From Methanoculleus formosensis (lineage in GTDB: Archaea; Halobacteriota; Methanomicrobia; Methanomicrobiales; Methanoculleaceae): a stretch of DNA of 64,000 nt. The stretch covers positions 434,001 through 498,000 of the forward strand of contig NZ_VHLL01000002.1 in the NCBI RefSeq assembly GCF_025384765.1, given 5' to 3'. Positions 4,795 to 6,807 of the stretch are shown here, piece after piece. Each line of letters begins with the position of its first letter. The first letter of the stretch is position 1. A model generated the notes under the pieces. That model saw nothing but the letters and a program-made list of their open reading frames with translations. It was not told the DNA's origin and ran no database searches. Both the position numbers and the translations under genes were made by a program.

Positions 4795-6249
4795 TCACCT
4801 CAGCCATCCCAGCCGGTAGAAGATCCACCCGACCACGAGCATCGATATGACGGTCCAGGCGGTCACCTCCCAGAGGCTCAGGGCAAACGGCGTTCCAAGG
4901 ATGTTCATCCCGAGCGTCTGCCCGATCAGGGTCGGGATCAGCACCAGAGCCGAGAGGACGGCGATCACCCGCATCGCCCGGTTCATCTCGTAGGAGACGG
5001 TGTTGATGTGGACGTCGATGAGGGAAAGGAGCCCTTCCCGGAGATTCCCGGCGGTCTCGTGCAGGTACGCCGTCTCGTCGGCGAGGGCGTCAAAGACGCT
5101 CTTCTCCCCCGCCCACGACCCCTCTCCGGGGATGCTCCGCGCGATGTTCGCCGCCACCGCCTTCTGGTGGAAGAGGCTTGCGGCGAGGATGCTGCTCACC
5201 CGTTTGAACTGGAAGACCGTCTCGAGGAAGTTCTCCGGCATCTCGTTGCTCGGCGTGCTCTCGAGCCGGATCAGTTCTGCCTCCATCTCCGTGAGGATCC
5301 GCGCGTACTTCTCGTTGATCCCGTCAAGGGTCCCGTAGAGGACCCGGGCATCAAGAGGCGCTCCGACCGTTGCGTTCCCGCCGGGGCCGGCCCGGGCCGC
5401 CGCCTTTGAGACAGTGACGATCGTCTTTTCCCGGTGCACGATGACGAGCCCGGTGTTCGTCACGACCGGGACCCGCACTCCTCGCCGGGACTGGAACGTC
5501 CGCTCCGGCTCCTGCACGAAGATGAGCCGGGTCGTGCCGGCAAACGTGATCCCCGGGTGCGACGGCCGCATCAGCCGGCTCTCGAAGTAGGCGGCAGGCA
5601 GATCGAGGATATCGGAGAGCACGGGGAGATCCGGCCGGGATACGCCGGAGATATCGAACCAGGCCCCGGTCGAGGGGTCGCCGAGGCGCTCCTTCATCCC
5701 GGCCGGGGTGAACTCCCCTTCTCCGTCGCCCTCCACCATCCCCCGGATCCGCATCGTCGAGACCGCGGGCGGTGCCGGCCCGGCGGCGGAGACTGCCGGC
5801 TCGATCCGCCGCTCCACGGACCGCCCGCCGGCCGCCGCCACCCGGACAACCCGGAGGAGCCGAAGCGTGGGAGAGGACCGTGCAAGGGTCGAGCCGGCGA
5901 CCGGCAACACCTCAAGGAGCGGGAGCATGATGATGGCGAGGTCGAGGAGATGCCAGCGGTCCAGGAAGTGACTCACCGGGTCCTCGGCGAGGCCCAGTTT
6001 GAGGACGTATTCGAGGACGAAGATGACGATGATCGTCGTATCGACCATCGTGAAGAATTCAGCGACCGGTCCGGGGAGAGAAGGGACAAGAAGGGGTATG
6101 ATGACGATCGGGGCCATCACCAGGCCGAGGAAGATCATCAGGCCGTCCGGGAGGACGAGGTCGACGATCTCACGTGCCCTGGCTTTCGTCCCCTCCCGGG
6201 TCTCATCCGCGCCCTGCTCCATCCCCTCACCCGAATCCCGGACCCGCAT
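4795..6249 (-). CDS. Voltage-sensor-like domain fused to a CorA-family Mg2+ channel
   Basis: Predicted inner-membrane divalent-cation channel of 484 residues. Residues 36-140 look like a voltage-sensing domain. S1 is about 36-58. S2 contains F77-x2-E80-x3-K84, the charge-transfer-centre pattern. S3 contains HLLDLAIIM with Asp103. S4 is TLRLLRVVRV with Arg130, Arg133 and Arg136 every third residue. The rest matches CorA: a cytoplasmic alpha/beta domain, long stalk helices (about 320-420), TM1 ending in the GMN selectivity motif (447-449), and TM2 near the C-terminus. The start at 6249 is chosen because it begins the first recognisable domain; GGGTGA lies 8 nt upstream and TATATA at 6281-6286 fits a short leader. 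The open frame continues upstream to 7344, but that part is antisense to two clear genes. An alternative start is Met10 at 6222. Confidence 0.87.
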   Translation of the reverse strand: MRVRDSGEGMEQGADETREGTKARAREIVDLVLPDGLMIFLGLVMAPIVIIPLLVPSLPGPVAEFFTMVDTTIIVIFVLEYVLKLGLAEDPVSHFLDRWHLLDLAIIMLPLLEVLPVAGSTLARSSPTLRLLRVVRVAAAGGRSVERRIEPAVSAAGPAPPAVSTMRIRGMVEGDGEGEFTPAGMKERLGDPSTGAWFDISGVSRPDLPVLSDILDLPAAYFESRLMRPSHPGITFAGTTRLIFVQEPERTFQSRRGVRVPVVTNTGLVIVHREKTIVTVSKAAARAGPGGNATVGAPLDARVLYGTLDGINEKYARILTEMEAELIRLESTPSNEMPENFLETVFQFKRVSSILAASLFHQKAVAANIARSIPGEGSWAGEKSVFDALADETAYLHETAGNLREGLLSLIDVHINTVSYEMNRAMRVIAVLSALVLIPTLIGQTLGMNILGTPFALSLWEVTAWTVISMLVVGWIFYRLGWLR

Positions 6250-6280: not shown

Positions 6281-6287
6281 TATATAG
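6281..6287 (-). promoter_or_regulatory. TATA box of the CorA-fusion gene
   Basis: TATATAG/CTATATA lies about 35 nt upstream of the start at 6249. With the usual archaeal spacing of about 25 nt, transcription would begin near 6258 and give a leader of about 10 nt. Confidence 0.5.
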
Positions 6288-6399: not shown

Positions 6400-6807
6400 A
6401 TGCACGGCGATTCGGCGGAACCGGTCTCGCTTGCGGACGCGATAGCGGCGGCGGATCTCTCCCGGCGGGAGAAGAAGAAGAACCCGGCGTTTGCGGCAGG
6501 ACTCTCGCTCCTCTTCAACGGCCTCGGCCAGGCCTACAACGGACAGTTCATGAGAGGTGTCCTGGTGCTGTTTGGGAGCCTCTTCGGCCTCTTCCTCCTG
6601 ATCGTTCCGGGCGTGGCGATCTGGGCCTGGGGCGTCTACGATGCCTGGGCCACGGCCCGACGGATGAACGAGGGGCTCGTCCCCTACCGGGAGACGAGTC
6701 CGCTCGCGATCGTCGGATTCGTGGTCGTCTGGGCGGTGACGATCTTCCTGCTCTCGGCGGCGTCGGCGATGCTCCTCGTCACGATGGGGATGCAGGGGAT
6801 GCTGTAG
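6400..6807 (+). CDS. Membrane protein, TM2/DUF5683-like
   Basis: A 135-residue integral membrane protein. A charged N-terminus with RREKKKNP is followed by a hydrophobic hairpin containing LLFNGLGQAYNGQFMRG, the glycine/tyrosine pattern of TM2-type and DUF5683-like small membrane proteins, then VYDAWATARRMN in a loop and a final helix (about 105-128). Function is unknown. It diverges from the CorA fusion and is followed after 3 nt by the flavin protein gene, so these two are probably cotranscribed. Confidence 0.8.
   Translation: MHGDSAEPVSLADAIAAADLSRREKKKNPAFAAGLSLLFNGLGQAYNGQFMRGVLVLFGSLFGLFLLIVPGVAIWAWGVYDAWATARRMNEGLVPYRETSPLAIVGFVVVWAVTIFLLSAASAMLLVTMGMQGML

Follow-up and report, generated by a model that had tools for sequence, protein, structure and literature searches.

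A voltage-sensor-like domain joined to a CorA-type protein without its Mg2+-sensing acids in Methanoculleus and related archaea

Does a gene of Methanoculleus formosensis encode a CorA channel that is gated or tuned by membrane potential? The question was raised by a first-pass annotation of a 64,000-nucleotide stretch of contig NZ_VHLL01000002.1 (positions 434,001 to 498,000; hereafter the window, whose own coordinates we use), in which the open reading frame at 4795-6249 was read as a voltage-sensing domain (VSD) fused to a CorA Mg2+ channel. This 484-residue frame is real, lies on the minus strand and had been numbered correctly, and its translation confirmed that VSD and CorA are encoded together; its start, however, probably lies 27 nt inside, so that the fusion gene would span 4795..6222 on the minus strand (475 codons plus stop). 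The ATG at 6222 (codon 10 of the longer frame) has a GGTGA motif just 5' of it, and because an ATG is found at the equivalent position in the relatives L001, L003, L004, L005, L007 and L008, in most cases with the motif, we consider this conserved GGTGA-ATG of Methanoculleus the likelier start. Residue numbers are counted from it unless otherwise indicated; adding 9 gives the numbering of the 484-residue frame. All features of the protein described below are encoded on the minus strand.

A CTATATA sequence at 6281..6287 (minus strand), which precedes the start codon by about 60 nt, was read as a candidate TATA box that may serve as promoter element, and a similar sequence lies upstream in L009. 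On the plus strand, 6400-6807 encodes a small membrane protein with weak likeness to DUF5683, divergent from the fusion gene and adjoining it in almost every Methanoculleus locus where the fusion is present; a winged-helix gene and a tRNA-Asn gene are found near. The operon context of the fusion gene in the Methanoculleus loci offered no functional clue.

The window protein consists of a complete S1-S4 VSD, followed by a linker of about 24 residues and a complete CorA with two transmembrane (TM) helices and a GMN motif. The two Pfam families that the annotation had set side by side both exceeded their curated cut-offs: Ion_trans (PF00520) scored 35.7 bits against 25, over model positions 6-108 of 241, which correspond to S1-S4 without the pore, and CorA (PF01544) scored 107.6 bits against 27, over positions 5-292 of 292. 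The NCBIfam CorA equivalog TIGR00383 gave 62.1 bits, well under its cut-off of 200.75, and the protein is therefore a divergent CorA. A single-sequence search of the PDB with phmmer retrieved CorA structures (best E-value 7e-11) as well as the VSDs of T-type calcium channels (9e-7). When an N-terminal profile built from 11 fusions was compared to the PDB, it matched voltage sensors of Nav, Cav3 and Kv4 channels with E-values down to 3.5e-25, and among the Nav and Cav chains shown, each of the four VSDs was matched. The S5-P-S6 pore domain of 6TM channels is absent from the window protein, in which the Ion_trans match stops at position 108 of 241 and about 24 residues lead from S4 to CorA.

This linker (5755..5826, residues 133-156) is Ala/Pro-rich and varies in length between subfamilies. 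It is followed by the CorA cytoplasmic alpha/beta domain and stalk helix (4993..5754, residues 157-410), recognized by PF01544 and by the phmmer matches to CorA structures, and then by TM1, the pore helix (4912..4992). The first-pass annotation had described the CorA domain as ending in GMN. The motif is present, at residues 438-440 (4903..4911), but it does not close the domain, as TM2 comes after it (4810..4878, residues 449-471), and PF01544 was matched to its last position.

Within the VSD, S1 occupies residues 27-48 (6079..6144; boundaries approximate, from alignments, and helical in both AlphaFold2 models), S2 residues 54-78 (5989..6063, aligned to S2 of Nav and Cav channels and including D61), S3 residues 90-108 (5899..5955, including W90) and S4 residues 112-132 (5827..5889). 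The residues expected of a voltage sensor were found where they had been announced. The F-x2-E-x3-K motif of S2 is formed by F68, E71 and K75 (F77, E80 and K84 in the 484-residue numbering), the Asp of S3 is D94 (D103), and the S4 arginines spaced at every third position, given earlier as R130, R133 and R136, are R121, R124 and R127. The earlier list lacked one further in-phase S4 arginine, R115 (R124 of the longer numbering), with P118 (P127) filling the place between.

We counted the conservation of these residues in an alignment of 31 non-redundant full-length fusions. The S2 signature is invariant, with F68, E71 and a Lys or Arg at position 75 in 31/31 sequences, and D94 of S3 is kept in 27, the other four having Asn or Tyr. 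In S4, R121 is present in 31/31 fusions, R115 in 27/31, R124 in 24/31 and R127 in 22/31, the exceptions being mostly Gln; besides R121, 82 of the 84 basic residues of the S4 core share its i+3 phase, a count taken over related, hence not independent, sequences. The annotation had made its reading depend on these S2 and S4 charges being conserved among homologues, and they are. In these sequences the charge-transfer centre is thus intact and is accompanied by S4 charges, the number of in-phase arginines ranging from two (L028, L069, L087) to five (L065). A lineage that we tentatively take to be Methanoregula has two to three S4 arginines, the outer positions being Arg and the two inner ones Gln, and L001 has lost one. 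In L069 and L087 the S4 region is longer and contains RLLRLLPRLLPRVLL-type repeats, making for an irregular voltage-sensor helix. For the pairs compared, dN/dS (NG86) was 0.21-0.35 in the VSD and 0.29-0.44 in the CorA part, indicating that the VSD is under purifying selection no weaker than that on CorA.

Structure prediction was less decisive. The full-length AlphaFold2 model, calculated with nine close relatives, had a pLDDT of 51.8, and the Foldseek matches listed for it were all CorA. The VSD modelled alone, with nine or ten close relatives, reached a pLDDT of 66.6, S1-S2 being fair and S3-S4 below 50. The expectation that this region models as an S1-S4 bundle found weak support: all 50 matches listed by Foldseek for this low-confidence model are voltage-gated channels (NavMs, NavAb, Kv4 and others; best E-value 9e-3), with the low pLDDT values, above all those of S3-S4, standing against it.

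The fusion extends beyond the genus. A scan for close relatives yielded nine loci, 72-79% identical, from Methanoculleus or methanogen MAGs; eight of them span the fusion. Whole-genome searches extended the full-length fusions to a second family of the same order (27-33% identity), to one more family within the phylum and to several genera of that class, the most distant being 26-33% identical. The survey covered one phylum in depth, and genome contigs were scanned once, with one close query. The distribution within Methanoculleus is patchy, about a dozen of approximately 35 genomes searched having a full-length fusion and a few more having truncated or remnant copies. In L009 (5001-5500; also L024), from Methanoculleus, the fused gene is cut off within S4 and continues into unrelated sequence; given this truncation and the remnants in G142 and G151, the gene decays in some strains. 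L033 (G032:C173), located in a fragmented genome, is a relative of the fusion in which a frame change and an internal TAG split the gene.

In a tree of CorA domains, calculated by a quick method and including some long branches, a branch with 100% SH-aLRT separates the fused proteins from the others, a topology consistent with one fusion event. Carriage by plasmids or viruses, considered as a means of spread, found no backing: neither a tblastn search in plasmids nor a scan of viral contigs with two alignments returned a relative. Since the genome of the window also carries unfused CorAs, one of them with an intact Mg2+ site, the fusion looks accessory. We note that the best-scoring canonical CorA of this genome (L041, G000:C7:84872-85735) is broken by one in-frame TAG, which may reflect a pseudogene, recoding or a sequencing error. 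The intact CorA adjoining it (C7:86298-87161) keeps the Mg2+ site, but its pore position N288 is Ala and M291 is Thr.

The CorA partner itself is altered. In the reference numbering of TmCorA, D89 and D253 form the M1 Mg2+-sensing regulatory site, and in ordinary CorA the Mg2+ bound between subunits at these residues keeps the funnel symmetric and closed. When the fusions were aligned with TmCorA and 63 unfused CorA sequences, both M1 acids were found to be gone in every fusion (31/31), a result that is new in this analysis, was missed by the first-pass annotation and has a direct bearing on its proposal. In the window protein D89 is replaced by Ser215 (5578..5580) and D253 by Ala379 (5086..5088), the latter assignment being given both by the alignments and by a gapless count back from D277. 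The D89 position is never Asp in the 31 fusions (Ser in 20, Val in four, Ile in two, and single occurrences of others, including one Glu), and the D253 position is Ala in 17, Ile in seven, Ser in four, Asn in two and Val in one. By comparison, Asp occupies the D253 position in 62/62 unfused GxN-type CorAs and the D89 position in 48/50 canonical CorAs; in a second unfused clade, D89 is lost in 11/12 sequences and D253 is kept. A D253K variant of CorA is described as constitutively open (PMC9276622), and the fused proteins would therefore need another gate.

Features of the pore are better preserved. N414, M417 and I420 of TM1 correspond to N288, M291 and L294 of TmCorA, and in the fusions N288 is found in 28/31, M291 in 31/31, Ile or Leu at L294 and Asp or Glu at D277 of the stalk; because these positions are largely kept, a working pore is likely. 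Selectivity elements are more variable. The tyrosine of YGMN (Y311) is Leu or Phe, giving LGMN in the window protein; the middle residue of GxN is Met in 13, Thr in eight, Glu in five, Val in four and Ser in one (GTN, GEN, GVN and GSN in relatives), the terminal Asn is kept in 30/31 with one GMK, and the acidic residue of the extracellular loop, E320, falls in a gap in 31/31. In view of this variation and of the missing loop residue, the description as a CorA Mg2+ channel stands for CorA, whose homology is full length, and is too firm for Mg2+. Two CorA-related Methanomicrobiales clades (L118-L125) lack GxN, having GSG or no motif, and also lack the pore Asn and Met and both Mg2+-site acids; judging from their sequences, they may not be channels.

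These features suggest a mechanism. The protein would assemble as a homopentameric CorA-type cation channel, each subunit carrying an N-terminal S1-S4 voltage sensor, and as both ends of the VSD should be cytoplasmic, S4 would run through the linker of about 24 residues straight into the CorA funnel. As the D89 and D253 acids are gone, the Mg2+ gate should be absent. Movement of S4 in the membrane field would act on the N-terminal alpha/beta domain via the linker, or S4 might touch TM1/TM2 directly; its motion would shift the funnel between closed and open states, and voltage, rather than cytoplasmic Mg2+, would be the controlling input. The polarity of gating is not predictable.

With the usual gate removed and a voltage sensor added, voltage control is the most likely reading, and we regard it as an evenly balanced proposition that this CorA-type cation channel has lost its Mg2+ gate and had it replaced by a voltage sensor. 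Some observations speak against voltage gating: S4 charges are reduced in some lineages, D89 is also lost in an unfused clade, and the gene is patchy. Moreover, as the fused CorAs form one clade, gate loss and sensor gain amount to one joint observation, not many, and the Mg2+ site may have been lost once, in coincidence with the fusion and not as a result of it. With a linker rich in Ala and Pro and of low conservation, rigid coupling from S4 to the funnel is not evident. Flux through ordinary CorA already increases with inside-negative potential (PMC6972854), so that driving force must be told apart from gating.

Several other explanations were weighed against voltage gating. The open reading frame sits among long open frames, rich in GC and present on both strands, as might be expected of an assembly or gene-calling artefact, yet the same fusion occurs in many independent genomes, some of them single-contig, with dN/dS well below 1 in both domains; many genomes and purifying selection together refute an artefact or chance fusion, whose probability we put at practically nil. 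A VSD without an S5-S6 pore of its own also recalls Hv1, and the protein could be a proton channel working through the VSD, with the CorA tail unrelated. The selectivity Asp of Hv1, however, sits in the middle of S1, where an acid is found in 0/31 fusions, and we rejected this candidate as most improbable. A CorA part that no longer conducts and serves instead as a scaffold or signalling domain driven by voltage would fit the loss of the regulatory acids, of the loop residue and of the YGMN tyrosine; we consider it quite improbable, since conservation extends to the pore-lining positions and to the GxN Asn (30/31), in contrast to the GSG and GxN-less Methanomicrobiales clades.

In TRP or CNG channels, the S1-S4 domains sense voltage poorly, and the S1-S4 unit of the fusions could likewise be a voltage-sensor relative by descent that is now an anchor, assembly or lipid-contact module, leaving the CorA pore constitutively open or otherwise gated. 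The flexible, variable linker and the fewer S4 charges of some lineages are in keeping with such a role. We find it unlikely nonetheless, as F68, E71 and Lys/Arg75 are invariant and the S4 phase is strict at 26-33% identity, a relative with five in-phase arginines exists (L065), and the profile is matched best by voltage-gated channels rather than by TRP channels; a TRP/CNG-like S1-S4 was set aside on the same profile matches. Credible, if still doubtful, is that the VSD senses voltage and the CorA part passes a cation other than Mg2+ (Zn2+, Co2+, Ni2+, or with less selectivity), which is compatible with voltage gating. The varying middle residue of GxN, the one GMK and the E320 missing in 31/31 favour this possibility, as do reports that GxN selectivity is loose and that both CorA and ZntB carry several divalent cations (PMC6972854); against it, the window protein retains GMN and the pore positions N288 and M291. 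The fuller version of the voltage-gating proposal, a pentameric CorA-type divalent-cation channel whose Mg2+ gate is swapped for five S1-S4 sensors and which would be the first VSD-gated pore that is non-tetrameric and non-VGIC, we advance tentatively, as somewhat short of an even chance.

The open-access papers searched describe no VSD-CorA fusion, "voltage-gated CorA" or "voltage-gated magnesium channel", in agreement with the earlier statement that the combination was not known as described. A 2024 voltage-sensor review covering SLC9C1, Hv1 and VSPs makes no mention of CorA, a text search matching "corals" alone. Both domains are known; what is new, relative to those papers, is their combination, together with the distinctive change in the CorA partner. 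The effectors known to be driven by VSDs are tetrameric channel pores, phosphatases and one exchanger. If the proposal is true, voltage control can be grafted, in Archaea, onto a channel fold that is unrelated and probably pentameric. That this clade has also lost its Mg2+ sensor would amount to a sensor swap made by nature, through which the coupling of CorA funnel to pore becomes directly testable, and it suggests that these archaea adjust divalent-cation uptake to membrane potential.

When compared to canonical CorA (TmCorA, PDB 2iub and 3jcf; MjCorA, PDB 4ev6; PF01544), the window protein shares the full alpha/beta domain, the stalk, the two TM helices, GMN, N288/M291 and D277, and differs in its N-terminal VSD, the loss of D89/D253, LGMN for YGMN, the lack of the acidic loop residue and the variability of GxN in relatives. 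With the VSDs of voltage-gated channels (Nav, Cav3, Kv4, NavMs/NavAb; PF00520) it has in common S1-S4, F-x2-E-x3-K, the S3 Asp and S4 arginines at every third residue, whereas it has no S5-pore-S6, a CorA partner and an expected pentameric, not tetrameric, assembly. Hv1, reported to be absent from archaea (PMC13095418), is likewise a VSD without its own pore domain, but has no effector domain and needs the S1 Asp that the fusions lack. In VSP, as here, a VSD is followed through a short linker by a C-terminal cytoplasmic domain, although that effector is a PTEN-like enzyme and not a channel. SLC9C1, the voltage-gated Na+/H+ exchanger described as the sole transporter known to be under VSD control (PMC10620092), also joins a VSD to a non-VGIC transport module, and its VSD is without direct contact with the transporter (PMC10620092); it differs from the fusion in its NHE-fold effector, in having the VSD C-terminal to it and a CNBD, and in being eukaryotic and dimeric.
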